Positions 11,172 through 33,857 of a stretch of 64,000 nucleotides of DNA are shown in pieces (positions within the stretch are counted from its first letter, which is position 1; the number at the start of each line of letters is the position of its first letter). Under the pieces are notes generated by a model. It was not told the origin of the DNA and did not search any database. It saw only the letters and a program-made list of their open reading frames with translations. Origin of the DNA: Sneathiellales bacterium (lineage in GTDB: Bacteria; Pseudomonadota; Alphaproteobacteria; JANQFL01); NCBI GenBank assembly GCA_028277845.1, contig JANQFL010000103.1, positions 1-64,000 of the forward strand, in the 5' to 3' direction. The position numbers were made by a program, and so were the translations under genes.

Positions 11172-12124
11172 CCAACCTGGCCCAGGAGGTGCAGACCGCG
11201 CTTTCGCAAATTCCCCGTTTCGGTTCGATCACGCCGGACGACTACACCATGGACCGGCTCGGCGGCCTGACCAACAAGGTCTTCCGTATCGAAACCGGCG
11301 GCGAGCGTTTCATCCTGCGCATCCCCGGCGAAGGCACCGAGGAGTACATCGACCGGGTGGTCGAGGGCCACAACGCCCAGGTCGCCGCCGACGCCGGCGT
11401 CTCGGCCGAGGTACTGCACGTCGACCCGGCCAGCGGCCTGATGCTGAGCCGTTGCATCGACGACATCGTCACCATGAGCCCCGAAGCCTTCAAGTCCCGC
11501 ACCGGCGCACCGGCGCGCGCCGCGCGGGCGTTCAAGCAGATGCACGAATGCGGTATGGAATTTCAGTTCCGCTTCGAACTGTTCGCCATGATAGACGAAT
11601 ACCGCGGCCACCTGTCCAAGCTCGGCGCGCAACTGCCCGAAGGCTATGACGCGGCGGTGGAGGAGGCCGGTGGCATCCAGACCATCCTGGCCGCCCACCC
11701 GATCCCGCTGGCGCCGTGCCATTGCGACCCGCTGTCGGAGAACTTCCTCGACAACGGCGAACGCATGTGGATCGTCGACTGGGAATATTCCGGAATGAAC
11801 GATCCCATGTGGGACCTGGGCGATCTGTCGGTCGAGGCCGAGTTCGACGCCGAGCAGGACGCCGAAATGATGCGCGCCTATTTCGACGGCACCCCGCCCG
11901 CCGCAATGATGGGCCGCATGGTCATCTACAAGGCCATGTGCGACCTGCTGTGGACGCTGTGGGGATTGATCCAGCACACCAACGACAACCCGGCCGAGGA
12001 TTTCTGGGCCTATTCCGTCAACCGCTTCGAACGCTGCCGCGCCCTGATGGCGACGCCCGATTTCAAGATGCATCTGACCGCCGTCGCCGAATCACCGACG
12101 CTGGCGGCCAAACGATTTTCTTAA
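11168..12124 (+). CDS. Choline/ethanolamine kinase-like (APH family) phosphotransferase
   Basis: PCHCDPLSENFLDNGERMWIVDWEYSGMNDPMWDLGDLS matches choline/ethanolamine kinase catalytic motifs; 4-bp overlap with upstream gene. Confidence 0.85.
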   Translation: MTNLAQEVQTALSQIPRFGSITPDDYTMDRLGGLTNKVFRIETGGERFILRIPGEGTEEYIDRVVEGHNAQVAADAGVSAEVLHVDPASGLMLSRCIDDIVTMSPEAFKSRTGAPARAARAFKQMHECGMEFQFRFELFAMIDEYRGHLSKLGAQLPEGYDAAVEEAGGIQTILAAHPIPLAPCHCDPLSENFLDNGERMWIVDWEYSGMNDPMWDLGDLSVEAEFDAEQDAEMMRAYFDGTPPAAMMGRMVIYKAMCDLLWTLWGLIQHTNDNPAEDFWAYSVNRFERCRALMATPDFKMHLTAVAESPTLAAKRFS

Positions 12125-12142
12125 CTGTAAGGTAGATCATCC

Positions 12143-12901
12143 ATGACCATCCGCGCCGTGACCTTCGATCTGTGGGACACCATGGTTCACGACGATTCCG
12201 ACGAGGCCAAGCGGGCCGCCCGGGGCCTGCGCAGCAAGCGCGACGAGCGCCGCCATCTGGTGTGGGCCGCGCTCAACGAGATCGAGCCGATCGACCTCGA
12301 CGCAGTGACGTTGGCCTACGACACCGCCGACGCCGGCTTCAATGTGGTGTGGAAGGAGTTGTTCATCAACTGGACCGTCGAGCAGCGCCTGCGGGTGGTG
12401 CTCAATGGTTTGAAGCGTTCCCTGCCCGACGACGCCTTCGCCAAGCTGGTCGAAGACACCGGCAACATGGAAGTCGACATCCCGCCCGACGCCATCGAGG
12501 GTATCGGCGAAGCGCTCGAAGACCTGGCCGGCCGCTACAAACTGTGCGTCGTCTCCGACGCCATCGTCACGCCGGGCACGGGGCTGCGCCGGATCCTCGA
12601 GCAGTACGACCTGGCCAGGCATTTCTCCGGCTTCGCCTTCAGCGACGAGATCGGCCACTCGAAACCGCACCGCTCCATGTTCGATTCGGCGGCGGAGCAA
12701 CTGGGCATTCCGGTCAACCAGATGGTGCACATCGGCGACCGCGACCACAACGACGTCAAGGGTCCGCATGCGCTCGGTGCCAAGGCCGTGCTGTTCGTCG
12801 CCACCCGCGACGCCGACCGGGCGACCACCACCGCCGACGCCATCTGCGAACACCACCGCGATCTGCCGGCCATTATCGACCGGCTCGCCGCCGAGGCCTG
12901 A
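12143..12901 (+). CDS. HAD-superfamily hydrolase
   Basis: TFDLWDTMVHD (motif I), VVSDA (motif II), KPHRSMF and HIGDRDHNDVKG (motifs III/IV). Confidence 0.88.
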   Translation: MTIRAVTFDLWDTMVHDDSDEAKRAARGLRSKRDERRHLVWAALNEIEPIDLDAVTLAYDTADAGFNVVWKELFINWTVEQRLRVVLNGLKRSLPDDAFAKLVEDTGNMEVDIPPDAIEGIGEALEDLAGRYKLCVVSDAIVTPGTGLRRILEQYDLARHFSGFAFSDEIGHSKPHRSMFDSAAEQLGIPVNQMVHIGDRDHNDVKGPHALGAKAVLFVATRDADRATTTADAICEHHRDLPAIIDRLAAEA

Positions 12902-12913
12902 GGAGACACAACC

Positions 12914-13774
12914 ATGTCGCAGCACCCCCGTTTCCTCGTCGTCGACGGCTACGCCAAGGCCGGCCGCGACGACCTCGCCTCCGGCGGCGCCACCACGGCC
13001 GGTAACCTCTACGCCGCCATGCTCGAGCGCTGCCACCCGGGCGCCCAATCCGACATCGTCTACCCCGCCGACCCCGACGCGGCCCTGCCCCAGGGCGCGG
13101 CCATTGCGCAGTACGACGGCATCGCCTGGACCGGCTCGAGCCTGACCATCCACCAGCCCGATCCCAAGGTGACGCCACAGATCGCCCTGGCCGAGGAAGC
13201 CTTCCGCGCCCACGTGCCCCAGTTCGGCAGCTGCTGGGCGGCCCAGATCGCCGCGGTGGCGGCCGGCGGCCGCTGCGACGTCAACCCCAAGGGCCGCGAG
13301 ATGGGCATCGCCCGCAAGATCGGCCTGACGCCCGAGGGCCGGTCCCATCCGCTCTATACCGGCAAGAAGACCGTGTTCGACGCCTTCATCAGCCACGACG
13401 ACGAGATCACCCACCTGCCGGCCGGCGGGGTCCTGTTGGCGTCCAACGCCTACACCCACGTCCAGGCCCTGGCGGTGACGTACGAGGGCGGCGAGTTCTG
13501 GGGGCTGCAGTACCATCCGGAGTACGACCTGCACGAAATGGCCCGGCTGTGCTACTGCCGCAAGCGGAAGCTTACGGACAAGGGCTTTTTCCAGGACATG
13601 GACGCGGCCCAGCGCTTCGTCGACCTGCTTGAGGCCCTGCACCAGGACCCGGGCCGCAGGGACATCGCCTGGCTCTTAGGCATCGACGAGGACATCACCA
13701 ACCCCGATATCCGCGTCGCCGAGGTGCGTAACTGGATCCGCCACCTGGTGCTGCCGCGCATGGCGGAGAAGTAG
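12914..13774 (+). CDS. Class-I glutamine amidotransferase-like protein (GATase1)
   Basis: FGSCWAAQ nucleophile elbow and LQYHPEYD His-x-Glu motif. Confidence 0.8.
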   Translation: MSQHPRFLVVDGYAKAGRDDLASGGATTAGNLYAAMLERCHPGAQSDIVYPADPDAALPQGAAIAQYDGIAWTGSSLTIHQPDPKVTPQIALAEEAFRAHVPQFGSCWAAQIAAVAAGGRCDVNPKGREMGIARKIGLTPEGRSHPLYTGKKTVFDAFISHDDEITHLPAGGVLLASNAYTHVQALAVTYEGGEFWGLQYHPEYDLHEMARLCYCRKRKLTDKGFFQDMDAAQRFVDLLEALHQDPGRRDIAWLLGIDEDITNPDIRVAEVRNWIRHLVLPRMAEK

Positions 13775-13879
13775 GCGCGGTGCGCTGAACTTTCGAAAAC
13801 CTGGAATACGTCGTAGGTGGCAATGCGCGAATTCGGCGGATTCGTGCGGGTTTTGATCCGCCGCACAGAGTCACTTGTC

Positions 13880-13905
13880 TAAATGATATAACTTTATATC
13901 ATTTA
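13880..13905. promoter_or_regulatory. Candidate operator: 11-bp perfect inverted repeat TAAATGATATA-actt-TATATCATTTA
   Basis: AT-rich dyad 39 bp upstream of the aconitase-type large subunit start. Confidence 0.6.
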
Positions 13906-13943
13906 AGCGAATTTCGACTTCGGAAACGTGCGGACCCAAGCGG

Positions 13944-15221
13944 ATGGCGGCGACCCTGGCGCAGAAGATCATTGCCCGTGCGGCGGGCCGGGAGCATATC
14001 GATCCCGGCGCCATCGTCACCTGCCGGGTCGACCTGGCGATGATGCACGATTCGGGCGGCCCGCGCCGGGTCAAGCCGATCCTCGACCGGCTCGGTGTCG
14101 GCGTCTGGGACCCGGCCCGGGTGGTGGTGGTGACCGACCACTACGTGCCCGCCGTCGACGCCGAGAGCGCCCGCATCCTGGCGCTGACCCGCGACTGGGT
14201 GGCGGACAACGCCATCGCCGCCTTCCATGACATGCAGGGCATCTGCCACGTGGTGGTGCCCGAACACGGCCATCTGAAACCCGGCATGCTGGTGGTCGGC
14301 GGCGACAGCCACTCGCCGACCGGCGGCGCCTTCGGGGCCTACATGTTCGGCGTCGGCGCCACCGAGATGGCCGGCGTGCTGGCCACCGGCGAGATCTGGC
14401 TCAAGGTGCCCGAGACCATCCGGCTGGAATGGACCGGCACGCTGGGACCGGGTGTGTCGGCCAAGGACATGGTGCTGGCCCTGTGCGCCCGCCTGGGCAT
14501 GGGCGGCGCCGATTACCAGGCGGTCGAATATGCCGGCGACGGCGTCGCCGCCCTGCCCATGGCCGAGCGCATGACGTTGAGCAACATGGCCGCCGAACTG
14601 GGCGCCCAGACCGGCCTGATCGCCCCCGACGACACCACGGCCCGGGCGATCCGCGACGCCGGCGCCGAACCGGGCGACATGACGGATCTGCGCGGCGACG
14701 ACGACGCGGCCTACAACCAGGTGCATACACTGGACGCCGGCGCCCTGGCGCCCCAGGTCGCCGCGCCGCACAGCCCGGCCAATGCCGCCGCCGTCGGCGA
14801 GCACGCCGGCACCGCCATCGACCAGGCCTATCTCGGCGCCTGCACCGGGGCCAAGCTGGACGATCTACGCATGGCCGCCCAGGTGCTGAAGGGCCGCACC
14901 GTGGCCCCCGACACCCGGTTGCTGGTGGCCCCGGCGTCGACCCGGACCACGGCCGCCGCCGCGGCCGACGGTACCCTGGCGGTCCTGACGGCGGCCGGCG
15001 CCCACATCATGCCGTCGGGCTGCGGCGCCTGCGCCGGCTACGGCGCGGGCGTGCTGGCGGACGGCGAGGTCTGCATCGCCTCGACGGCGCGCAACTTCAG
15101 GGGCCGCATGGGCGCGACCGGATCGCGGGTCTATCTCGCGTCGCCCTTCACCGTCGCCGCCGCGGCCGCCACCGGCCGCATCACCGATCCGCGCGACCTG
15201 TTGAGCGAGGCCGCGGCATGA
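13944..15221 (+). CDS. Aconitase/3-isopropylmalate dehydratase large-subunit family protein
   Basis: GDSHSPTGGAFGAYMFGVGATEMAGVLATGEIWLKVPETI, LGACTGAKLDDLRMAA and PSGCGACAGYGAGVL [4Fe-4S] motifs. Confidence 0.87.
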   Translation: MAATLAQKIIARAAGREHIDPGAIVTCRVDLAMMHDSGGPRRVKPILDRLGVGVWDPARVVVVTDHYVPAVDAESARILALTRDWVADNAIAAFHDMQGICHVVVPEHGHLKPGMLVVGGDSHSPTGGAFGAYMFGVGATEMAGVLATGEIWLKVPETIRLEWTGTLGPGVSAKDMVLALCARLGMGGADYQAVEYAGDGVAALPMAERMTLSNMAAELGAQTGLIAPDDTTARAIRDAGAEPGDMTDLRGDDDAAYNQVHTLDAGALAPQVAAPHSPANAAAVGEHAGTAIDQAYLGACTGAKLDDLRMAAQVLKGRTVAPDTRLLVAPASTRTTAAAAADGTLAVLTAAGAHIMPSGCGACAGYGAGVLADGEVCIASTARNFRGRMGATGSRVYLASPFTVAAAAATGRITDPRDLLSEAAA

Positions 15222-16634: not shown

Positions 16635-18320
16635 ATGATCGATCCCGTCACCCTGGCCGTGCTCAAGGGCCGGCTCGAACAGATCGCCGACGAAATGGAC
16701 GCGACCCTGTTCCGCAGCGCCTTCAACCCGATCATCGCCGAGGCCCACGATGCCAGCCACGGCCTGTATCACCGCGACACCGGCGAGACCCTGATCCAGG
16801 GCAAGTCGGGCCTGCCGGTGTTCGTCGGCGCCATGTCGTTCGCCGTCAAGGCGGTGATCGACGTGGCGGCCCGGGACGGCGACCTGGCCGACGGCGACGT
16901 CTATATCTTCAACGACCCCTACGACGGCGGCACCCACCTGTCCGACTTCAAGCTGGTGCGGCCCTATTTCCGCGACGGCGAACTGTTCTGCTATCTCGCC
17001 TCGGTCGGTCACTGGCACGACGTCGGCGGCAACGTGCCGGGCAACTACAACCCCGTCGCCACCGAGTGCTTCCAGGAAGGCATGCTGATCCCGCCGGTCA
17101 AACTGTTCGCCGCCGGCGAGATGCGCCGGGACGTGGTGCGCATTCTGCAGGCCAACTCGCGCCTGCCCGGAAGCCTGTACGGCGACCTGAACGGCCAGAT
17201 CAACGCCCTCGATCTGGGCGTGCAGCGGTTGACCGCCTTGCTGGACGAATACGGCGACAAGGTGGTGACCGAAGCCCTGGCAGAATTGAAGGACCGGGCG
17301 GCGCGTCTGATGCGGTCCAATATCGCCGAGCTGCCCGACGGCACCTATGCCGCCGAGGACTGGCTCGACAATGACGGCATCACCGACGACCCGTTGCGTA
17401 TCGGCCTGACCGTCACGATAGCCGGCGACGAAATGACGCTGGATTTCTCCAATACCGCGCCGGCCTGCGCCGGACCGGTCAACATCGCCCGCTCGACGGC
17501 CATCGCGTCGTGTTACGTGGCGCTCAAACACATCTTCCAGGACGTGCCGGCCAACGCCGGCGTGCTCGACCCCATCACCTTCGTCATTCCCGACGATTCG
17601 CTGCTCAGCGTCACCGCGCCCAAGCCGGTCGGCGGCTACACCGAAACCATCCTCAGGGTCATCGACGTGGTGTTCCAGGCCTTTGGCCAAATCGCGCCGG
17701 AACGCAGCAACGGATGCGCCTACGGCACCATCAACGCCCTGTCCCTGGCCGGCCATCGCAAGGACGGGCGGCGCTGGGTGATGTTCTCGTTCTTCGGCGG
17801 CGGGCACGGCGGCAACCCGGTCGGCGACGGACTCAACCACGGCAACGCGCCGATCTCGACCGCCACCATTCCGCCGGTGGAAATCCTCGAGGCCGCCTAT
17901 CCGGTCAAGTTCACCCAATGGGCGCTCAGGCCCGACAGCGGCGGCGCCGGGCGCCACCGGGGCGGCCTGGGTGCGGTTTATGAAATCGAACTGCTGGAGG
18001 AAGAGGCCGACGTGTTCCTGTTCGCCGAGCGCGGTAAGTACGCGCCCCAGGGCATCGCCGGCGGTGGCGCAGCCGCGGCCAATCGGTTCGTCTACGAACA
18101 GGACGACGGCGACCACGAACTGCCCTTCGTCTCGAAGGGCGTCGGCATCAAGATCAGCAAGGGCCAGCGGCTGCATTTGGAGACGCCGGGCGGCGGCGGC
18201 TACGGCAATGCAAGCGAACGCGCCACCGACGATATCGCCCGTGACATCCGCCTTGGGTATTTGACCGACACGGGCGCCCGCGAGGACTACGGTGACGGCG
18301 GGTCGGGGCAGACGGCATGA
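16635..18320 (+). CDS. hyuB: Hydantoinase B/oxoprolinase family protein
   Basis: DPVTLAVLKGRLEQIADEMDATLFRSAFNPIIAEAHDASHGLY and PGGGGYGNA hallmarks of HyuB. ATG at 16635; an alternative TTG start at 16629. Confidence 0.9.
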   Translation: MIDPVTLAVLKGRLEQIADEMDATLFRSAFNPIIAEAHDASHGLYHRDTGETLIQGKSGLPVFVGAMSFAVKAVIDVAARDGDLADGDVYIFNDPYDGGTHLSDFKLVRPYFRDGELFCYLASVGHWHDVGGNVPGNYNPVATECFQEGMLIPPVKLFAAGEMRRDVVRILQANSRLPGSLYGDLNGQINALDLGVQRLTALLDEYGDKVVTEALAELKDRAARLMRSNIAELPDGTYAAEDWLDNDGITDDPLRIGLTVTIAGDEMTLDFSNTAPACAGPVNIARSTAIASCYVALKHIFQDVPANAGVLDPITFVIPDDSLLSVTAPKPVGGYTETILRVIDVVFQAFGQIAPERSNGCAYGTINALSLAGHRKDGRRWVMFSFFGGGHGGNPVGDGLNHGNAPISTATIPPVEILEAAYPVKFTQWALRPDSGGAGRHRGGLGAVYEIELLEEEADVFLFAERGKYAPQGIAGGGAAAANRFVYEQDDGDHELPFVSKGVGIKISKGQRLHLETPGGGGYGNASERATDDIARDIRLGYLTDTGAREDYGDGGSGQTA

Positions 18321-20395
18321 GTGATTCACCCGGGCGTATCGTCGGTGTCGATGTCGGCGGCACCTTCACCGACGTGTTTTTTCTCAACGAGGCCACCGGC
18401 GGCTACGAAGTGGCCAAGGTGCCGTCGACGCCGGGCGACCAGTCCAAGGGTTTCCTCAACGGGCTCAAGCAAGGCGAGGCACCCTTCGCCGAAATCGCCA
18501 CCGTGGTACACGGCACGACCGTCGGCACCAATGCGTTGCTGGAACGCAAAGGGGCCAGGACCGGTTTGATCACGTCACGGGGTTTCCGCGACGTGCTGGA
18601 AATGCGCCGGCGCGACCGGCCGCAGACCTGGGGCCTGTGGGGCACGTTCGATCCGGTCATCCCGCGCGACCTGCGCCTGGAAGTGGCCGAACGCACCCAC
18701 GCCGACGGCATGGTCGCAGAGGCGGTCGATGCACAGGAAGTCAAGGCCCGCGCCAGGGACCTGGTCGAGATGGGCTGCGATGCCGTGGCGGTGTTCTTCA
18801 TCAACAGTTACGCCAACGCGGCCAACGAACAGGCCGCACTGGCCGCCGTCGCCGAGGTCTGGCCCAACGAGCATATCGTCGCCTCGCACCGGATCGTGCC
18901 GGAGATCCGCGAATTCGAGCGCATCTCCACCACGGCCCTGAACGCCGCCCTGCGGCCGGTGGTCGGCACCTACCTGCACCGGCTGGAAACGGCGTTGGTC
19001 GACGACGGCTTCGGCGGCCAGGTTCTCATCGTACAGTCCAACGGCGGCGTCATGTCGGTCGACACGGCCCGGCAGTTGCCGATCCGTACCGCGCTGTCGG
19101 GCCCGGCCGCCGGGGTCATCGCCGGCGCCCACATCGCCAAGGCCGCGGGTTATCCCGACGTCATCACCTGCGACATGGGCGGCACCAGCTTCGACGTCGC
19201 CCTGGTGGTCGACGGCGAAAGCGCGCTGAGCCCGCAGACCGCCATCGACTTCGGCATGGTGGTGCGCACGCCGATGATCGAGATCACCACCATCGGCGCC
19301 GGCGGCGGCTCCATCGCCTGGGTCGACCGCGGCGGGCTGCTGCAGATCGGTCCGGAATCGGCGGGTTCGGACCCCGGTCCGGTGTGTTACGGCCTGGGCA
19401 ACGACCGGCCGACGGTGACCGACGCCAACCTGGTGCTGGGCCGCATCAACGCCGAGCGGCCGATCGGCGGCAAACTCGACCGCCTCGATGTCGACGCCGC
19501 CAAGGCGGCCATCGCGGCGCATGTGGGCGAACCACTCGGTCTGGGCGCCATGGACGCCGCCGAGGCCATCATCCGCGTGGCCAACGCCCGCATGGCCGGC
19601 GCCATCCGCCTGGTTTCGGTCGAACGGGGCCATGACCCGCGCGGTTTTTCGGCCATGCCGTTCGGCGGCGGCGGTTCGCTGCACACGGGCGCGCTGATCA
19701 AGGAGGTCGGCCTGGCCCGCGCCCTGGTGCCGCGCTTTCCCGGCGTGACCAGCGCGCTGGGCTGCGTCATCGCCGATATGCGCCACGACTTCGTGCACAC
19801 CCTCAACGTCATGCTCGACGACCTGGACGAAGGGGCGCTCGATGCGGAGATGTCCGGCCGTGCCGGTGAAGGTCTGGCGCTGCTTGAGAAGGCGGGAATC
19901 GGGTTGCAGGGGAACACCTGCCAGTTCGAACTGGACATGTCGTATCTCGGGCAGACTCATACCGTATCGGTCCCCCTGCCGGTCACGCTCGACGGGGACA
20001 CCACCGGCGTGACCCGCGCCCTGATCCGCCAGGCCTTTGAGGATGCCTACCGGGCCGCCTACGGCCGGTTGCTGGACGACATCGCCATCCGTGTGCTCAA
20101 CCTGCGCGTCGCCGTCATCGGCCACCGGCCCAAGTTCGACCTTTCCGCGCTGGCGCCGGGACCGGACGCCTCGGCCGAGGCGGCGAGAACCGGCGAGCGC
20201 CAGGTCTGGGTCGACGGCGGCTGGCATACGGCGGCGATCTACGACCGGCTGGTCCTGCCGGCCGGCGCCGGGGTGCCCGGACCGGCCCTGCTGGAACAGC
20301 CCGACACCACCATTTTCATCGACCCCGATCTGGCCGGCACCGTCGACGCCCACGGCAATCTGGTCATCGAACGCAAGCAGGACGCCCGGCCATGA
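18317..20395 (+). CDS. hyuA: Hydantoinase A/5-oxoprolinase family protein
   Basis: GVDVGGTFTDVFF, HGTTVGTNALLERKGARTGLITSRGF, CDMGGTSFDVALV, GAGGGSIAWVD. Confidence 0.92.
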   Translation: MSDSPGRIVGVDVGGTFTDVFFLNEATGGYEVAKVPSTPGDQSKGFLNGLKQGEAPFAEIATVVHGTTVGTNALLERKGARTGLITSRGFRDVLEMRRRDRPQTWGLWGTFDPVIPRDLRLEVAERTHADGMVAEAVDAQEVKARARDLVEMGCDAVAVFFINSYANAANEQAALAAVAEVWPNEHIVASHRIVPEIREFERISTTALNAALRPVVGTYLHRLETALVDDGFGGQVLIVQSNGGVMSVDTARQLPIRTALSGPAAGVIAGAHIAKAAGYPDVITCDMGGTSFDVALVVDGESALSPQTAIDFGMVVRTPMIEITTIGAGGGSIAWVDRGGLLQIGPESAGSDPGPVCYGLGNDRPTVTDANLVLGRINAERPIGGKLDRLDVDAAKAAIAAHVGEPLGLGAMDAAEAIIRVANARMAGAIRLVSVERGHDPRGFSAMPFGGGGSLHTGALIKEVGLARALVPRFPGVTSALGCVIADMRHDFVHTLNVMLDDLDEGALDAEMSGRAGEGLALLEKAGIGLQGNTCQFELDMSYLGQTHTVSVPLPVTLDGDTTGVTRALIRQAFEDAYRAAYGRLLDDIAIRVLNLRVAVIGHRPKFDLSALAPGPDASAEAARTGERQVWVDGGWHTAAIYDRLVLPAGAGVPGPALLEQPDTTIFIDPDLAGTVDAHGNLVIERKQDARP

Positions 20396-25235: not shown

Positions 25236-25961
25236 TCAGGCCGGCGGTTCGAGCAGGCGGCCGCGGCCGCGGGCCGTTGCGTCGCAGCCGCTCAACCGCA
25301 GTGCCGCCCAACTGCCCGCCACGGCGCTGGACACCATGGGAATACCGGTTTCCGCTTCCAGCGCCGTGGTCACGTCCAATGTGTGCAGGCCACCGCAGGA
25401 CACCAGGATGGCGTCGGAATGGGCATCGCGCCCTTCGGCGTAGGCGCGGCGGCCGAGATCCAACAGGTCGTCCTGGCCGACGTCGGCGATCGCATCGACG
25501 GCTTCGATGTTCAGCGACGCCAGGGCCGTGACCGTGAAGCCCGAAACCGCAAGAAATTCGACGAGACGGCGGTTGACCGGGTCCGTGTAAGCCGTGCCGA
25601 CGGCGACGCGCCGGGCACCCAGCACCCGCAGGGCATCGACGACGGCGTTGCTCATGGTCGTCGCCGGAAGGCCGGTTTCCGCGCGCATGATATCGACCAG
25701 CCGCCTGTTGAACGCGGCGCCGCGGTAGAAACTCATCGACGTGCCCATCAGGACGACGGCGTCCGCGCCCCGGCCGGCCAGGCGTTCGGCATGGCCGGCG
25801 ATACTGTCGACAACGCCGTCGTAACCATCCGGCGTCAATCTGTCGAGCCCCAGACCGGCGGCGATGAACGACGCCCGATCCCCGTAGAGCGCCGGGCATT
25901 CCGGCGGCACCAGGCCGCCGGCCGGGGGAACGATCAGTCCGATAGTCGGTTTGCCGGCCAT
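25236..25961 (-). CDS. Arylmalonate decarboxylase-like protein (Asp/Glu racemase/maleate isomerase superfamily)
   Basis: GLIVPPAGGLVPPE, VVLMGTSMSFYRGAAFN and ILVSCGGLHTLD match arylmalonate decarboxylase motifs as recalled; Gly at the first catalytic position, Cys at the second. Start at internal Met 25961. Confidence 0.8.
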   Translation of the reverse strand: MAGKPTIGLIVPPAGGLVPPECPALYGDRASFIAAGLGLDRLTPDGYDGVVDSIAGHAERLAGRGADAVVLMGTSMSFYRGAAFNRRLVDIMRAETGLPATTMSNAVVDALRVLGARRVAVGTAYTDPVNRRLVEFLAVSGFTVTALASLNIEAVDAIADVGQDDLLDLGRRAYAEGRDAHSDAILVSCGGLHTLDVTTALEAETGIPMVSSAVAGSWAALRLSGCDATARGRGRLLEPPA

Positions 25962-25998
25962 GATGTCTGCCTTCGCTGTTGAATCGGAAAGGGGCGTG

Positions 25999-27153
25999 TC
26001 AGCCTTTGCCGGCGCCGCGCGATTTCGGCTGTTTCGACAAATCGCGCACATGATCGATATTCGGCTCGAATCCGAGTCCCGGGCCGGTGGGCAATGTCAG
26101 CCAGCCGTCCTCGGGTTGCGGCAAATTGTCGAAGATCAGGCCGTAACACTCGACCGCAAGATAGTGGTGTTCGACCAGCCAGCCGTTGGCCAGGCCGGCG
26201 TGAATGTGCATGTTGTGATAGGACCAGGCGCCGCCGTTGGCGTAGGGCGTGTTGAACGCCGCCGCCATGCCGGCGATTTTCGCGCACTGGGTATAACCGC
26301 CGGTAATGACCACGTTGGGCTGAACGACATCGACCGCGCCGGCGGCAAGCAGATCGCGGAAGCGGTAGGCCAGACCCTCGTTCTGGCCGCAGGCCAGCGG
26401 AATGCGCGTCTTGCGGCGCAGCTCGGCCATGCCGCGTACATCGTTCTGGGTAATCGGCTCCTCGAAGAAGGAAATGCCGCAATCCTCCACGGCGCCGGCA
26501 AGCTGGGAGGCATGAAACAGATCGAGGTTGCAGTTGGCGTCGATGTAGAGGGCGATATCCTCGCCGACCGCCGCGCGCACGGCGCGCACGCGCTGGATAT
26601 CCTCGGCGAGGACGTCGGCCGGCGGCCGCGGCTCGTCGCGCCGCCTGAGGGCCCCGTCGCCCACGGTCATTTTGAGGCGTGTAAATCCGTTCGCAACCCA
26701 CAGCTTGGCCGCTTCGGCCAGTTGCTCGCGGTCGAAAACCGAGAAACCGAACGTGGCATAGACCGGCACGCGGTCGCGGGCGGCGCCGAGCAGCCGCCAG
26801 ACCGGCTGTCCGAGCGCCTTGCCCTTGAGGTCCCACAACGCGACGTCGACGGCGGCGATGGCGTGCGACGCGTAACCGGTCTGCCCCCGCGGGCTGAGCA
26901 ACCAGTAAAGGTCATGCCACAACGCTTCGCTTGCCAGCGGGTCCCGCCCGATTATCGCCGGCCCGGCGACCGCGTTGACGGCCTCGGCGACGACTTCCTC
27001 CTCGGTGATGCCCGTCATGCCCCACCCCGTGAGGCCGGTATCCGTATCGATCCGCACCAGACACACCGACAATCCGGTTTTCTTGTCGAGGCCGAGAACA
27101 TCGACGGTGACGGGAAGGAACAGCGGAATGGCTTCGACGTTCGCAATCTTCAT
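25999..27153 (-). CDS. Mandelate racemase/muconate lactonizing enzyme (enolase superfamily) protein
   Basis: MKIANVEAIPLFLPV, YIDANCN, FFEEPI, PLACGQNEGL; MR_MLE N-terminal and C-terminal architecture. Confidence 0.88.
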   Translation of the reverse strand: MKIANVEAIPLFLPVTVDVLGLDKKTGLSVCLVRIDTDTGLTGWGMTGITEEEVVAEAVNAVAGPAIIGRDPLASEALWHDLYWLLSPRGQTGYASHAIAAVDVALWDLKGKALGQPVWRLLGAARDRVPVYATFGFSVFDREQLAEAAKLWVANGFTRLKMTVGDGALRRRDEPRPPADVLAEDIQRVRAVRAAVGEDIALYIDANCNLDLFHASQLAGAVEDCGISFFEEPITQNDVRGMAELRRKTRIPLACGQNEGLAYRFRDLLAAGAVDVVQPNVVITGGYTQCAKIAGMAAAFNTPYANGGAWSYHNMHIHAGLANGWLVEHHYLAVECYGLIFDNLPQPEDGWLTLPTGPGLGFEPNIDHVRDLSKQPKSRGAGKG

Positions 27154-27237
27154 GGCGACCAAATGCTCCTGACTTGATACTGGGACCCCAACACATACGA
27201 GTCCGGTTCGGTCATGGCGGCGGCAGTGACGGCATTA

Positions 27238-28746
27238 TCAATCCCCATCGTCCGCCTCCGGCGCGCGGTTCCGGAAATATGCCGGCAGATAGCGCATCAA
27301 GGGCCAAAACGCCGTGGCGAACGCCACGACCAGAAAGGCGAGCGAGACCGGCCGGGTGACCAGCGGCAGGAAGCTGCCGTCGTAGATCATCAGGCCCGAG
27401 CGCAGATTGACTTCGGCGATGGGCGCCAGAATGTAGCCGATGATGAACGGACCCGTCGGCACGCGGGCCTGAATCATGGCGAAACCGAGGGCACCGAACC
27501 CCAACATGACCCAAACGTCGAACAAACGGTTGCTTTCCGAGAACGCGCCGATAATGCAGAACACGACAATGGGCGGCATCAGCCAGACCCGCGAGACATA
27601 CATCAGGCGGGCGAAAACCGGCGTCGCGACCAGCATGATCAACAGCATGAGCACGTTGGCGACCAGCGCGGCGGCGATGATGCCGTAGGCGCTCTCGGGC
27701 GAATTCTGAAACAGCAGCGGCCCGGGCGTGAGATTGTGAATGACCAGGGCGCCGAGGAGAATCACGTCGATCACGCTGCCGGGAATGCCCAGGGTAATCA
27801 GCGGTACCAACGCACCGTTGACGGCGGCGTTGTTGGCGGTTTCCGCCGCCACGATGCCGTCCTCGCACCCCTTGCCGAACTTCTCGGGGTGACGCGAGAA
27901 GCTGCGCGCGGTGGTATAGGACGCGATGGCGCCGGTCGTGCCGCCGATGCCGGGCAGGATACCGATCCAGGTGCCGATCAGCGACGACCGCACCAAATTG
28001 ACGGCCTGGGCCTTCAGGTCGGACAGCGTCATGAACATGCTGCGCGTCGTCGTCCGCACCCGCTCGAGCGGTTGTTCGATATCGATGACGTCCTTGAGAA
28101 CCTGGCTCAGGACCAGCATGCCGAGAATCACCGGCAGCAGTTGGAAGCCGCTGTCCAGGTCGTGGAACCCGAACGTCATGCGGACAACGCCGGACGCGTT
28201 GTCGACCCCCACCATGGACACGACGGCGCCCAGCACGCCGGAAAGCAGGCCCTTGATCATCGAGCCCTGGCTGACCGCGCTGATCAGCATCAGCGCGACC
28301 AGGCTGATGGCGAAGATCTCGTACGGACCGAACCGCACCGCGATGTCGGCGAGCGGCGGCGACAATGCCGCCAGAAATACCCAGGAGATCAGGCCGCCGA
28401 TAAACGACGCCATGATCCCGAAGCCGAGGGCACGCCCGGGCTGGCCCCGCTTGGCCATGGGAAAGCCGTCCAACACCGTCATCATCGCCGCCGGTGTTCC
28501 GGGCATGCGCATCAAGGTGGCCGAGATCAGCCCGCCGCTCGTCGAGCCGACGTACATGGCCACCAGCAGCACCAGGGCATGGGTGCTTTCCATGAAAAAC
28601 GTCAACGGCAAGGCGAGGGCAATGACCATCGCGCCGCTCATGCCGGGAATGGCGCCGACCACGATACCCACGAACACGCCGAGAAACACCAGCAGAAAGG
28701 GAAGCGGCGCAAACAGTTCCGCGAACGAGGACAGCAATGGCTCCAT
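27238..28746 (-). CDS. tctA: Tripartite tricarboxylate transporter permease, TctA family
   Basis: About 500-aa multi-TM protein; GAIPGMSGAMVIALALPLTF, LGIPGSVIDVILLGALVIHNLTPGPLLF. Confidence 0.93.
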   Translation of the reverse strand: MEPLLSSFAELFAPLPFLLVFLGVFVGIVVGAIPGMSGAMVIALALPLTFFMESTHALVLLVAMYVGSTSGGLISATLMRMPGTPAAMMTVLDGFPMAKRGQPGRALGFGIMASFIGGLISWVFLAALSPPLADIAVRFGPYEIFAISLVALMLISAVSQGSMIKGLLSGVLGAVVSMVGVDNASGVVRMTFGFHDLDSGFQLLPVILGMLVLSQVLKDVIDIEQPLERVRTTTRSMFMTLSDLKAQAVNLVRSSLIGTWIGILPGIGGTTGAIASYTTARSFSRHPEKFGKGCEDGIVAAETANNAAVNGALVPLITLGIPGSVIDVILLGALVIHNLTPGPLLFQNSPESAYGIIAAALVANVLMLLIMLVATPVFARLMYVSRVWLMPPIVVFCIIGAFSESNRLFDVWVMLGFGALGFAMIQARVPTGPFIIGYILAPIAEVNLRSGLMIYDGSFLPLVTRPVSLAFLVVAFATAFWPLMRYLPAYFRNRAPEADDGD

Positions 28747-28761
28747 AAGACGGCGCGGCCC

Positions 28762-29268
28762 TTAGCCGGGTAAATCGATGTAGAAGAAACCGGTGAAAAT
28801 CCAATGCAGGCCGACGCCCAAAACCAGCGCCACGCCAAGCGCCACCGGGAGCATGCGGACGCGCCGGCCGGCAAGAACCATGATGAAGGCAAAGACAAAC
28901 AACACGGACGCCCAGCGAAATCCCAGCACCTGCCATTCCATGGCCAGAACGTAAAGCACCGTGAGTCCGGCGGCGGCGGCGGCCAAGTCGCGGCGCGGCC
29001 GGGCGGCCGGTGCGTCCGGCGCCGGCGCGCCTTCGCTCTCCGGGTTTGCGGATCCGGACCGGCCGCGGGCGGTCTGCACGGCGGCGGCGATGGACAGAAC
29101 GACCAGCACAAGCCCCGCCCAAAGCGGAAACGCGGCCGGACCGACAGGCTCGAGCATCGGCGGCGGCAATCCGATACTGCTCCAGATGGCCAGCCCGCCG
29201 ACCGCGGCCATGGCACAGGCAAACGCATTGTCGGCCACCCAGGCCGTGAACAAAGACCGGTTCATCAT
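28762..29268 (-). CDS. tctB: Tripartite tricarboxylate transporter small membrane subunit, TctB family
   Basis: Small 4-TM protein between TctA and TctC genes. Confidence 0.85.
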   Translation of the reverse strand: MMNRSLFTAWVADNAFACAMAAVGGLAIWSSIGLPPPMLEPVGPAAFPLWAGLVLVVLSIAAAVQTARGRSGSANPESEGAPAPDAPAARPRRDLAAAAAGLTVLYVLAMEWQVLGFRWASVLFVFAFIMVLAGRRVRMLPVALGVALVLGVGLHWIFTGFFYIDLPG

Positions 29269-29368
29269 CGACCTCCGCTTCCCCGGTGAGACGTCCGTCC
29301 GGGAAAAGGTACCATCGGCGCCGGAAAAGACACCAACGGCCGTTTCCCGGACCGTGGGAAGCGAGCCC

Positions 29369-30328
29369 TTATTGCATCGACGCCTTTACGGTGCCCGCGA
29401 CACTCTCGAACGACTTCATTTCGGCCGCGATATCCTGCTTGAGCTGCGCGCCCGTGCGCACGCGGATCGTACTGAGCCGTTGCTTGTGATACTCGATCAG
29501 TTCCGGGGTCCGCATGACCTTTTCCAGCACGCCGGCAAAGTAGGCGACATGGTCCGGCGACGTTCCGGCGGGAGCCCAAAAACGCCGGTTCAGGCAAGCC
29601 TCGATATCAAGTCCGCGTTCCTTGGCCGTCGGCATGCCCTTCGCCGCGGCGGGCAGGGCCGATCCCATCCACAGGAGTCCCCTGAGTTCATCGCCGGCGC
29701 GTTTGATCCAACCCGGAGACATGAACGCCATGTCCGTGTGACCGCCCTTCATCGAGGCAAAACGCTTCGACGTGCCGCCGGTGTGCACGACTCCGAACTT
29801 GATACCCAGCCTGTCCATCATCATGGCCGCCGGGAAATGGGAAATACCGCCGATGATATCCGCCAGTTTGAGCTGGCCCGGGTTGGCCTTGGCGTACGCC
29901 GTCATGTCGTCAAATGTCTTGAGTTGGGATTTCGCCGGCACGGCGAGATAAAGGCACGACTGGGTGGTTTGCGCCACCGGTTCGTAGGCTGTGGCCGGAT
30001 CGAAGCCGAGCCGGCCGGTGGCCGCCAGCGCGAACATCTCGTTGTGCATCTGCAAGAACGTATAACCGTCGGGATCGGCATCCTTGACCCGCCGGGCACC
30101 GACGGCGCCGCCGGCACCGGTCACGTTGACCACGACCAGCGGCTGCGTCATCAGCTTGTGTTTTTCGATGGCGGCCTGAATGGTCCGGGCCAAACCGTCG
30201 GTTCCGCCGCCGGCCCGGTAAGGCAGAATCAGCTTGATCGGTTTTTCGGGATATTCCGCAAACGCGGCGGAGCCCGCAAAGAGAATCGGTAGCGCCAACA
30301 ACGCTGTGATCAGTTTTCGCCCCATCAT
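29369..30328 (-). CDS. tctC: Tripartite tricarboxylate transporter substrate-binding protein, TctC/Bug family
   Basis: EYPEKPIKLILPYRAGGGTDGLARTIQAAIEK, Bug-family signature; signal peptide from MMGRKLITALLALPILFAGSAAFA. Confidence 0.92.
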   Translation of the reverse strand: MMGRKLITALLALPILFAGSAAFAEYPEKPIKLILPYRAGGGTDGLARTIQAAIEKHKLMTQPLVVVNVTGAGGAVGARRVKDADPDGYTFLQMHNEMFALAATGRLGFDPATAYEPVAQTTQSCLYLAVPAKSQLKTFDDMTAYAKANPGQLKLADIIGGISHFPAAMMMDRLGIKFGVVHTGGTSKRFASMKGGHTDMAFMSPGWIKRAGDELRGLLWMGSALPAAAKGMPTAKERGLDIEACLNRRFWAPAGTSPDHVAYFAGVLEKVMRTPELIEYHKQRLSTIRVRTGAQLKQDIAAEMKSFESVAGTVKASMQ

Positions 30329-30494
30329 GGCAGCCTCCCTGGTTCTGGTTGGTTCGGCTTTGCGAACGAGAACCGGGCCACCGGCACCAGCCACCTTTTT
30401 CATCACATCGCCGCTCAAATTGGCTTGAGATTGACAGGCTGATCCTAAACCGACAATTATATTTTTTTACCTAAGCCATAACCAAAGGTTAAGT

Positions 30495-31412
30495 ATGGAG
30501 CTGCGTCAGCTTGGCCATTTTCTCGCGATCGTGGAGCACGGGTCGTTGGGCCGCGCGGCCCTGGCCCTCAACATCACGGAACCGGCGTTGAGCAAGAGCA
30601 TCCGGCGGCTGGAAGACAGCCTGCAGGTTTCGCTGTTCGACCGCGGCACGCGCGGCATGACCCGCACGCCGTTCGGCGATTCGTTTCTCCAACACGCCCG
30701 GCTGATCGTCGGCGAGATCGAGACCACGCGTCAGGAACTGGATGAACTGCGCGGTATCAGCCGCGGTATCGTCCGTATCGGCGCCCGGCCCAGTTTCAAT
30801 TTGACCGTATTGCCGCGGGCGGTTACCCGCATGCAAACGAGCCGGCCGGGCGTACAGGCCGTCGTGCGCGAAGGCTTCATGCCGAACCTGATCACCGAAG
30901 TCATTCAGGGCGACCTCGACTTTATCGTCGTGACCGAGGCGGACGATCTCGATCAAAGCCTCACACAGGAACCGTTGGCAATGAGCCCGGTCGGCCTGAT
31001 GGCCCAGGCCAACGATCCGCTGCTGCGGAAAGGCACGCTTGCCGCCGCCGACCTCGACGGCGCCAAATGGATCCTGCCGTTGCCGACCGATCCGATCCGC
31101 CGCCAATTGGAACACGCCCTCGGGACCATCGGCCTCGATCCGGTCAATGTCGTGGCGGAGTCCAATTCGGTTCTGTTCACCATGTCGTACATCCGCGAAA
31201 CCGGCGCGGTCGGTTTCCTGCCCCGCGCGACGATCGAGCTCGGGCTGGGCTGGGGCCGTGACGACCTTGCGTTCCTCGACGTGCCCGAACTGTCCTGGCA
31301 GCGGCAACTGAATATCATTCGCCGCCGCCGCGCCAGCCTGTCGCCACCGGCGCAATTGATGATCCGGGAATTGAAGGCGGTCAGCGAGGAACTTGGCGTC
31401 GGCATCACATAA
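30495..31412 (+). CDS. LysR-family transcriptional regulator
   Basis: MELRQLGHFLAIVEHGSLGRAALALNITEPALSKSIRRLEDSL; divergent from tctC. Confidence 0.93.
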   Translation: MELRQLGHFLAIVEHGSLGRAALALNITEPALSKSIRRLEDSLQVSLFDRGTRGMTRTPFGDSFLQHARLIVGEIETTRQELDELRGISRGIVRIGARPSFNLTVLPRAVTRMQTSRPGVQAVVREGFMPNLITEVIQGDLDFIVVTEADDLDQSLTQEPLAMSPVGLMAQANDPLLRKGTLAAADLDGAKWILPLPTDPIRRQLEHALGTIGLDPVNVVAESNSVLFTMSYIRETGAVGFLPRATIELGLGWGRDDLAFLDVPELSWQRQLNIIRRRRASLSPPAQLMIRELKAVSEELGVGIT

Positions 31413-31464
31413 AGACGTACTCCCGTACGTTGGGCTCCATCCCCTGCCTGCGGACGCCGGTTTT

Positions 31465-31537
31465 CCAGCCCTACTTCAGCGCCCGGCCGAGATAATCCAC
31501 CGCCGCCTGGGTGCCGCCGGTGCCGTGGGGGGATGTC
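31465..31537. repeat. Diverged copy A of the aminotransferase 3' end
   Basis: About 73 bp matching 32664-32735 with 3 substitutions and one extra G; reverse complement encodes AAVDYLGRALK*. Confidence 0.85.
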
Positions 31538-31572
31538 CAGTGCCTCCTTCCATTGCAAAGAAAAGATCGCAC

Positions 31573-31614
31573 CATCAAACCCTGGGATCAAACACCTAAA
31601 GCAAGGGTTTGATG
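31573..31614. repeat. 11-bp perfect inverted repeat, catcaaaccct ... agggtttgatg
   Basis: Arms at 31573-31583 and 31604-31614 at the left edge of the AT-rich insert. Confidence 0.6.
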
Positions 31615-31771
31615 TCATTTGCTATCCGTATTGGAATTAGTCGACCTGCTTGATTGAGACGCAACTTTCGCTACAGAAATGCAACCATTAAGGATAGAAT
31701 ATTGTTTCGTTTCTGTTCAAATTATTGGGCCACCCGACAAGGAGTTAAAACCAAGATACGGATGTTTGGAT

Positions 31772-32260
31772 ATGTACTCACTCCTCAACATAGTCGGCGC
31801 TCTAGCCTCGATTGCGGGGCTTGTTTTAACAATTATTGCGATGGATTTCAGAACGGGCTCCGTCGTCGTGCCGACAATTCCATTGAAAAATCTTCCCTTA
31901 TTAATTCTAATATTTCTTGTTTTGGAATATTTATTTGCCCATTTTTTTATAACGTTACTTATGTGGTTCAATAGTCGAATTAATAATGCAACAATTTTTA
32001 TAGTTGGATTTATACTTCTTTTTCTTTCTGGCTGGCAATCGTCCGTTTTGTGTCAATATATCTGGGGAGTTTCTCCCAACTCATCTCTTGATTGGGCGAA
32101 ATACATAGCACTTGGCGCGTTCTGCGTCATTTTACATCCCATGCCTGTACTTGGCTCTTCTTCCAAATTGGAATCAGATTTCGATGATAGTTTTATGAAC
32201 ATGACTTTTGTTTTTGGGATACCTTTCTTTTTTGCTTTCATTACGGCAGGCCTAGGTTAA
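31772..32260 (+). CDS. Hypothetical multi-TM membrane protein in AT-rich DNA
   Basis: MYSLLNIVGALASIAGLVLTIIAMDF... with four to five hydrophobic stretches; AT-rich codons unlike the surrounding genes; no family recognised. Confidence 0.5.
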   Translation: MYSLLNIVGALASIAGLVLTIIAMDFRTGSVVVPTIPLKNLPLLILIFLVLEYLFAHFFITLLMWFNSRINNATIFIVGFILLFLSGWQSSVLCQYIWGVSPNSSLDWAKYIALGAFCVILHPMPVLGSSSKLESDFDDSFMNMTFVFGIPFFFAFITAGLG

Positions 32261-32663
32261 TTTTACCCGCGAAATTTTTGCTTTAACTTAACTCGGACTT
32301 GAGCATGTCGCTCTTTACATACCTGCAACAATACTGTTGGCGAGCTCCATAGGCGTTGGCATTGAAGTGTTGAATGCAAGGCCAAAAGCCACTTGGTCTA
32401 CTTTACCTAGTCAAACAAACTAAGTACGAAAACAGTCAATTAGATAATCTAGTCAGCCGCATAAGATTTGCCTGGATTAGTCCATTTTATGTCAGAGACG
32501 TGAAATGGCCATTGATGCTCGAAATGTTGCTGCCAGCAATTCAAAGCATCTTGAAGACAAGTGACTACCATTTACCCACGGTCACAATCGCGAGTTTCTC
32601 GCTGTACTTGCGTCCGGTCCAGGAAACGACTTGCAGGTTTTGGTTCTAGGGTTAGAGCTCCGC

Positions 32664-32735
32664 CCAGCCCTACTTCAGCGCCCGTCCCAAATAATCCACC
32701 GCCGCCTGGGTGCCGCCGGTGCCGTGGGGGATGTC
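32664..32735. repeat. Copy B of the repeat: 3' end of the intact aminotransferase gene
   Basis: Matches 31465-31537. Confidence 0.85.
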
Positions 32736-33857
32736 GAGGGCGGCGAGGCCGGTTTCCAGGGCGCCGAGGGTGCCGAGCACCATGGGGGCGTTGGTGTGGC
32801 CCATGTGGGCGATGCGCAGGGCCTTGCCGTCCATTTCCTCGCCGATGCCGATGCCCAGCACCACGCCGCAGGTTTCGCGCACGAAGTCGAGCAGCCGCTG
32901 CGGATCGTAGCCCTGCTTGACCAGCACCGTGGTGACCGAGACGGCCCGTTCCTCGGGCCTTTCGATGTTGAAATCGAGCACCCCGCCGGTGCGCCAGACG
33001 TCGACCGCGGCATGCACGGCGCCGGCCAGCAGGCGATGGCGGCGGAAGGTGTTTTCCAGGCCTTCCTCGAGCAGGATGTCGAAGGCCTTGCGCAGGCCGA
33101 ACAGCAGGTGCTCGGGCGGCGTGCCGCAGTATTTCTGGTAGTGCAGCGGCCCGTCGCGCTGGGTCCAGTCCCAGTAGTAGGTGCGCAGGCCGGCCGACTG
33201 GTGGCGTTCGACCGCCTTGGGTCCGGCGGCGACGAAGCTGAGCCCCGGCGGCGTCATCAAACCCTTCTGCGAACCGGTCACGGCGATGTCGACGCCCCAG
33301 CTGTCCATGGCGAAGGGCATGCAGCCCAACGAGGCGATGCAGTCGACCATGAGCAGTGCGTCGCTGCCGGTGTCGTCCATGGCGGCGCGGATCGCCGGAA
33401 TGTCGTTGACCACGCCGGACGCGGTGTCGATCTGCACCACCAGGATGGCCTTGAAATCCTTGGCGTCGTCGGCCTGCAGGCGCGCCTTGAACGCCGCCAC
33501 GTCGACCGCCGCGTGCCAACTGCCGGGCAGCACCTCGACCTCGACGCCGAGCATGTCCGCCATCATGCCCCAGGCGGTGGCGAAGCGGCCGCTTTCCAGC
33601 ACCAGTACCTTGTCGCCGCGGTTGAGCACGTTGGTCAGGGCCGCCTCCCAGGCGCCGTGGCCGTTGGATGCGTAAATGTAGGCCCGGCCCTCGGTGCGGA
33701 AGACGGTGCGCAGGTCCTCGTGGCACGACGAGGTGATGTCGAGCAGCGAGCCGGAATAGATGTCCACGGCCGGGCGGTGCATGGCGTTGAGCACTTCATC
33801 GGGCACGTTGGTGGGACCGGGGATGGACAGGAATTCGCGGCCGTTGGCGACAGTCAT
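32670..33857 (-). CDS. Class V aminotransferase (serine-glyoxylate/alanine-glyoxylate type)
   Basis: FLSIPGPTNVPDEVLNAMHRPAVDIYSG and AVTGSQKGLMTPPGLSFVA (PLP lysine). Confidence 0.9.
   Translation of the reverse strand: MTVANGREFLSIPGPTNVPDEVLNAMHRPAVDIYSGSLLDITSSCHEDLRTVFRTEGRAYIYASNGHGAWEAALTNVLNRGDKVLVLESGRFATAWGMMADMLGVEVEVLPGSWHAAVDVAAFKARLQADDAKDFKAILVVQIDTASGVVNDIPAIRAAMDDTGSDALLMVDCIASLGCMPFAMDSWGVDIAVTGSQKGLMTPPGLSFVAAGPKAVERHQSAGLRTYYWDWTQRDGPLHYQKYCGTPPEHLLFGLRKAFDILLEEGLENTFRRHRLLAGAVHAAVDVWRTGGVLDFNIERPEERAVSVTTVLVKQGYDPQRLLDFVRETCGVVLGIGIGEEMDGKALRIAHMGHTNAPMVLGTLGALETGLAALDIPHGTGGTQAAVDYLGRALK

Follow-up and report, generated by a model that had tools for sequence, protein, structure and literature searches.

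Gene neighborhoods point to malonate-type acids, possibly 2-hydroxymalonates, as substrates of an arylmalonate decarboxylase module in a Sneathiellales bacterium

The 64,000-nucleotide stretch analyzed here (contig JANQFL010000103.1, positions 1 to 64,000; in the following, the window) derives from a Sneathiellales bacterium and contains a gene for arylmalonate decarboxylase (AMDase, encoded by amd) clustered with genes for an enolase-superfamily protein of the mandelate racemase/muconate-lactonizing enzyme type (MR/MLE), for the three subunits of a tripartite tricarboxylate transporter (TTT) and for a divergent LysR-type regulator. The comparative data support well that the cluster is a module for import and decarboxylation of a malonate-type acid. 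We further suggest, with confidence and doubt about evenly balanced, that a 2-hydroxy-2-substituted malonate would be imported, decarboxylated to an (R)-2-hydroxyacid and converted to a 2-oxoacid. Matches in Pfam and NCBIfam bear out the six genes, their order and their strands as proposed in an earlier sequence-only reading:

25236..25961, minus strand: amd, arylmalonate decarboxylase, 241 aa (PF17645, 311 bits; NF052327, 316.8 bits)
25999..27153, minus strand: MR/MLE enolase-superfamily protein with atypical active site, 384 aa (PF13378, MR_MLE_C, 181.8 bits; PF02746, MR_MLE_N, 65.2 bits)
27238..28746, minus strand: tctA, large permease of the TTT, 502 aa (PF01970, 469.7 bits)
28762..29268, minus strand: tctB, small permease, 168 aa (PF07331, 62.9 bits)
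29369..~30328, minus strand: tctC, periplasmic substrate-binding protein, ~319 aa (PF03401, 95.7 bits)
30329..30494: divergent intergenic region of 166 bp, putative shared promoter/operator (from sequence)
30495..31412, plus strand: divergent LysR-type regulator, 305 aa (PF00126/PF03466)

With TctA, TctB and TctC encoded together, the transporter set is complete. From the AMDase side to the TctC side, the gaps among the five minus-strand genes are 37, 84, 15 and 100 bp, and these short distances together with the divergent region facing lysR fit a single operon. The tctC start is placed at the ATG that opens a signal-peptide-like N-terminus, and for AMDase position 25961 is preferred over position 26051 of the longer open reading frame. 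Promoter-like matches between lysR and tctC barely exceed those in shuffled sequences and show no specific site.

Judged by model score and residues, the enzyme of the window appears to be a true AMDase. It exceeds the cut-off of the NCBIfam equivalog NF052327 (316.8 versus 225 bits), agrees with all 12 criteria published by Maimanakos et al. (PMC4996985) and is 56% identical to the Bordetella bronchiseptica AMDase (PDB 3dtv, 3ip8), with which it shares the equivalent of catalytic C188, with Gly rather than Cys at position 74, as well as an identical dioxyanion hole (T75, S76, Y126, G189) and P14-P15. The two enzymes differ in the hydrophobic pocket, where L40, V43, Y48, V156 and M159 correspond to L, L, Y, V and I, that is, by the conservative changes V43L and M159I. 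Pfam PF17645 was rejected as an AMDase detector, as within the class 142 of 395 genomes give a match, nearly always with a low score. One more distant AMDase-like protein (locus L002; PF17645, 194.9 bits) has GTS and CGG motifs; an ABC transporter and a gene resembling enoyl-CoA hydratase are encoded next to it.

To the window and a Ponticoccus plasmid locus we added 79 AMDase loci from a scan of genome contigs, giving a set of 81 amd loci in which neighbors were counted within 6 kb. G74, T75, S76 and Y126 are present in all 81 loci and C188 in every alignment row that reaches this position. MR/MLE genes occur in 32 loci, and in 30 of them a distinctive, linked type lies beside AMDase; TctC is found in 38 loci, a TRAP permease in 18, an aldehyde dehydrogenase (ALDH) in eight, an ABC oligopeptide-type binding protein in four and a thiamine diphosphate (ThDP) enzyme in three. 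A flavin mononucleotide (FMN)-dependent 2-hydroxyacid dehydrogenase is encoded in 17 loci, 16 of which also have the linked MR/MLE, and an IlvD-type dehydratase in 12, of which 11 contain a dehydrogenase of the 3-hydroxyisobutyrate dehydrogenase (HIBADH) type that is tartronate-semialdehyde-reductase-like. No locus combines IlvD with the linked MR/MLE, which is present in 30 loci but in none of the 12 with IlvD. Of 399 genomes of the phylum sampled independently, only 4 encode a close MR/MLE (E <= 1e-75); the two with the strongest match, the window and G736, both have it next to AMDase; the G736 protein is 69% identical to that of the window and has TctC and AMDase adjacent. Given this recurrence (30/81 amd loci versus 4/399 genomes), we reject chance co-location of MR/MLE with AMDase.

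Three loci (L035, L050, L081) lie in metagenome-assembled genomes (MAGs) labelled Chloroflexota and Acidobacteriota, for which contamination is possible; the 2016 survey reports amd genes in Proteobacteria only (PMC4996985). In L105 a fused class I fumarase/tartrate-dehydratase-type gene is located directly upstream of AMDase and is possibly a third kind of dehydratase partner. The ABC-type amd locus of Aminobacter (L117) adjoins genes of the 4-hydroxyphenylacetate 3-hydroxylase, flavin reductase and muconolactone isomerase families, an aromatic setting.

The TctA of the window is 62-63% identical to those of the amd loci of Ponticoccus (L110) and Aurantimonas (L093) and 58% identical to that of Nitratireductor pacificus (L034), versus at most 36% for the remaining TctA proteins in the loci compared at the same step, and its TctC is 44-49% identical to those of the same three loci. 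Hence, the combination of TctABC, MR/MLE and AMDase, for which the sequence-only reading had proposed a survey, recurs with the same transporter subfamily in three other lineages. The arrangements differ: in Aurantimonas TctCBA is divergent from MR-FMN dehydrogenase-MarR with AMDase next, in Ponticoccus TctCBA-AMD-ALDH-ThDP enzyme is divergent from MR-FMN oxidase-MarR, and in N. pacificus MR is divergent from TctCBA, which is followed by TRAP-MR-AMD. The Ponticoccus plasmid locus continues (10173-15149) with a RuBisCO-like protein, transketolase/ThDP E1 pieces and a molybdopterin oxidoreductase. A later search turned up additional TctA relatives (49-54% identity) in loci where AMDase was not found, so that the transporters linked to amd form a tight subgroup within a broader one; as ligand hints these next-closest relatives were uninformative, their neighbors being sulfatase-like or other MR/MLE genes. 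The TTT uptake systems TphC, AdpC and MatC (terephthalate/dicarboxylate) have, as predicted for the window, a TctC-type binding protein for a dicarboxylate; TphC adjoins the genes that degrade its dicarboxylate ligand (PMC8556258).

That such a cluster is a dedicated unit for uptake and catabolism was the central point of the sequence-only reading, and its conservation in the survey supports it. The idea is not original, however, given that Maimanakos et al. (2016) described the grouping, with an MR/MLE gene in 61% of amd neighborhoods and five amd clusters with TTT genes, the alphaproteobacterial ones with complete TctABC, and suggested that the adjacent MR/MLE and TTT genes serve to take up the substrate and break down the product (PMC4996985); the uptake idea was repeated in a 2018 review (PMC5812351). 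By description, rather than by comparison with their own sequence set, the window resembles their clusters TTT-IV and TTT-V, in which AMDase occurs with complete TctABC in alphaproteobacteria, often adjoining an MR/MLE gene (PMC4996985). The FMN dehydrogenase, ThDP decarboxylase, ALDH and IlvD partners and the atypical MR/MLE site are not mentioned in the passages of that survey on these clusters. Thus, this kind of gene grouping has been known since 2016, and what is new here is the comparison pointing to 2-hydroxymalonates and a mandelate-type continuation, together with the atypical MR/MLE active site.

The mandelate pathway, mdlABCD, consists of a racemase, an FMN-dependent (S)-mandelate dehydrogenase, a benzoylformate decarboxylase and a benzaldehyde dehydrogenase. 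The same four enzyme types are encoded beside AMDase in the amd loci of Hydrogenophaga and Ponticoccus, and FMN 2-hydroxyacid dehydrogenase, ThDP enzyme and ALDH occur together in L060, L103 and L110. The operon of two Hydrogenophaga MAGs has the order TctC-ALDH-benzoylformate decarboxylase-TctC-AMD-MR-FMN dehydrogenase-flavin adenine dinucleotide (FAD)-type aromatic hydroxylase, all gaps or overlaps are below 30 bp, and the decarboxylase reaches 771.8 bits with the equivalog model for benzoylformate decarboxylase (cut-off 493). The Ponticoccus ThDP enzyme belongs to a different subtype (NF006203, 643.6 bits), which makes its substrate less sure. These loci differ from the mandelate pathway by the added AMDase and by a racemase homologue without the catalytic residues of mandelate racemase, and the unit of the window differs further in having the MR/MLE only and none of the later enzymes. 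We found no paper tying AMDase to the mandelate pathway in the literature searched. A dehydrogenase, a 2-oxoacid decarboxylase and an ALDH make sense if AMDase yields a 2-hydroxyacid, in which case its substrate would be a 2-hydroxymalonate; to this substrate class we give about even chances.

The MR/MLE protein combines an ordinary fold with an atypical active site, and its reaction cannot be read off the family name. The two-domain architecture with a (beta/alpha) barrel is evident from PF02746 and PF13378 and from an AlphaFold2 model (pLDDT 86.9), for which Foldseek returned enolase-superfamily structures first (best 3ozm, TM 0.87) and in which the site residues K161, T163, D205, E231, Q257, N280 and G307/G308 lie at or just beyond the ends of the barrel strands. 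All 26 operonic copies examined retain the mandelate racemase residues K164, D195 and E221, but K166 is replaced by T or V, E247 by Q (motif GQNEG), D270 by N and H297 by G; these residue numbers, unlike the conservation within the group, depend on the mandelate racemase reference stretch used for the comparison. Accordingly, the set of three acidic metal ligands is incomplete in the window protein, D205 and E231 being kept and the third being Q257. The change of E247 to Q was rejected as unique to the amd-linked proteins given that the solved structures 3msy, 3no1 and 4h83 carry it too while keeping KxK and His, and Q257 thus weakens only the claim of a standard metal site. The MR/MLE genes in L039 and L047 are not of the linked type and retain the acidic ligands and the His. 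Assignment as an ordinary mandelate racemase or sugar-acid dehydratase was rejected, as the residues permit no direct assignment. Pfam and fold uphold the enolase-superfamily assignment made earlier, whereas the enolate-forming chemistry claimed with it is not readable from the family, the second Lys and the Asp-His pair being missing. H313 and H316, invariant in the alignment of the linked proteins, are candidates for a second base.

Combining these data with the published biochemistry of the Bordetella enzyme, we suggest that the cluster functions as a substrate-inducible catabolic unit that would be controlled by LysR. TctC is predicted to bind an extracellular malonate-type dicarboxylate and TctAB to carry it inward, whereupon AMDase would strip one carboxylate via an enediolate and C188 would protonate this intermediate to give the (R)-acid. 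Malonates with an alpha-hydroxyl plus an alpha-phenyl or alpha-alkenyl group are well accepted by the Bordetella AMDase (PMC4517146). The likeliest substrates would be 2-hydroxy-2-substituted malonates (tartronates), bearing an aryl or alkenyl substituent if this biochemistry carries over, and the product an (R)-2-hydroxyacid. FMN_dh enzymes oxidize (S)-2-hydroxyacids, and dihydroxyacid dehydratases act on (2R)-dihydroxyacids. With an (R) product, an (S)-specific FMN_dh enzyme would therefore need an inverting enzyme and IlvD would not. In one route the MR/MLE may invert the stereochemistry before an FMN-dependent (S)-2-hydroxyacid dehydrogenase forms the 2-oxoacid, and in the other an IlvD-type dehydratase may form it directly, given a 3-hydroxyl. 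If inversion is required only before the (S)-dehydrogenase, the mutual exclusion of MR/MLE and IlvD would be explained. The 2-oxoacid would then be degraded, in some hosts with the aid of a ThDP-dependent decarboxylase and an ALDH. In the host of the window the dehydrogenase would lie outside the cluster: a search of this genome by protein family found one strong FMN_dh match elsewhere (407.5 bits) and three IlvD/EDD genes; no ThDP enzyme exceeded the cut-off for benzoylformate decarboxylase. As no linked dehydrogenase or decarboxylase is present, the later steps in this host would be unlinked or different.

Several observations weigh against this scheme. The unit of the window has no dehydrogenase, ThDP decarboxylase or ALDH of its own; many amd loci carry none of the MR/MLE, FMN dehydrogenase, IlvD, ThDP and ALDH-type partners; and aryl tartronates were not found documented as natural products in the literature searched. 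Placed on a tree, the 17 FMN dehydrogenase and 12 IlvD loci stem from only a few independent clades, the former from a Comamonadaceae clade, Aurantimonas with Ponticoccus and one gammaproteobacterial MAG, the latter from two to three places among the alphaproteobacteria, interleaved with MR/MLE loci, so that Fisher values for partner co-occurrence, which are uncorrected for kinship, overstate significance. The linked MR/MLE is without K166, D270 and H297 of mandelate racemase, and a racemase role would thus need an unrecognized second base. The linked type also occurs with TTT genes where no AMDase is nearby (L112, L113, L114). In Neorhizobium, Paracoccus and the archaeon Halostagnicola, relatives with the Q/N/G pattern adjoin TTT genes but no AMDase, and with relatives of 41-46% identity next to TTT genes and no AMDase nearby, we rejected the atypical MR/MLE as a partner of AMDase only.

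Among the alternatives, a sugar-acid-type substrate such as the ascorbate-derived 2-carboxy-L-pentonates, with AMDase forming an aldonate and MR/MLE or IlvD acting as interchangeable aldonate dehydratases, would accommodate that the two substitute for each other in amd loci, that the IlvD loci hold a tartronate-semialdehyde-reductase-like HIBADH and that in NCBIfam and the PDB the MR/MLE is closest to sugar-acid dehydratases and cycloisomerases. A PdxA-family enzyme performs 2-carboxy-L-pentonate decarboxylation in Ralstonia eutropha, which we count on the same side. Moreover, these acids are natural and undergo slow loss of one carboxyl, which yields L-lyxonate and L-xylonate (PMC11066805). 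We nevertheless consider this alternative unlikely: the characterized AMDase refuses dialkyl malonates and requires an alpha carbon that carries a pi-system (PMC4517146), the pocket is lined with hydrophobic residues, the MR/MLE is without the standard dehydratase bases, and the benzoylformate decarboxylase and aromatic hydroxylases of the Hydrogenophaga locus indicate aryl substrates.

Alternatively, the substrate could be a plain arylmalonate or alkenylmalonate without the 2-hydroxyl, giving an arylacetate, and the oxidative genes near some amd genes would serve neighboring aromatic pathways. AMDase hosts were isolated on phenylmalonate (PMC4424294; PMC4996985), and many amd loci lack hydroxyacid enzymes and are accompanied by TctC or an ABC transporter only; neither FMN 2-hydroxyacid dehydrogenases nor benzoylformate decarboxylase act on arylacetates, however, yet both are encoded inside tight amd operons, and we judge this explanation rather improbable. 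A loose neighborhood, in which unrelated enzymes lie by chance next to a general TTT importer for common carboxylates, would draw on the abundance of TTT and MR/MLE genes in such genomes and on the TctA relatives of 49-54% identity that adjoin other MR/MLE or sulfatase-like genes. Already disfavored by the recurrence of the combination in differing gene orders and several lineages, always with the same divergent MR/MLE type, it seems to us highly implausible.

Two further features are located near the cluster. The G+C content drops to 0.52-0.54 at 31000-32999, just past lysR, versus ~0.65-0.70 in most of the surrounding sequence, possibly an old insertion boundary. A hydantoinase A-type gene is present at 18317-20395 on the plus strand; the gene directly downstream of AMDase in N. 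pacificus (L034_10) is, judged by eye, hydantoinase A-like too.

AMDase is a cofactor-free decarboxylase used for making single-enantiomer drugs, and the neighborhood comparison narrows the candidates for its natural substrate to a small set. Its strict (R) outcome is conserved, a preference called puzzling by Maimanakos et al., who gave the natural substrate as unknown (PMC4996985). The 2-hydroxymalonate scheme would provide a reason for keeping this selectivity, as the configuration of the product would decide whether the next enzyme needs an inverting partner, i.e. MR/MLE before an (S)-dehydrogenase, or not, as for IlvD. More tentatively, and with doubt outweighing confidence, AMDases in general may be natural 2-hydroxymalonate (tartronate) decarboxylases that open a mandelate-type route and, at the same time, the linked MR/MLE proteins a new class of 2-hydroxyacid racemases, or other enolate enzymes, without Lys166 and His297. 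As a conserved enolase-superfamily group with an unusual active site, these proteins are a target for function assignment.

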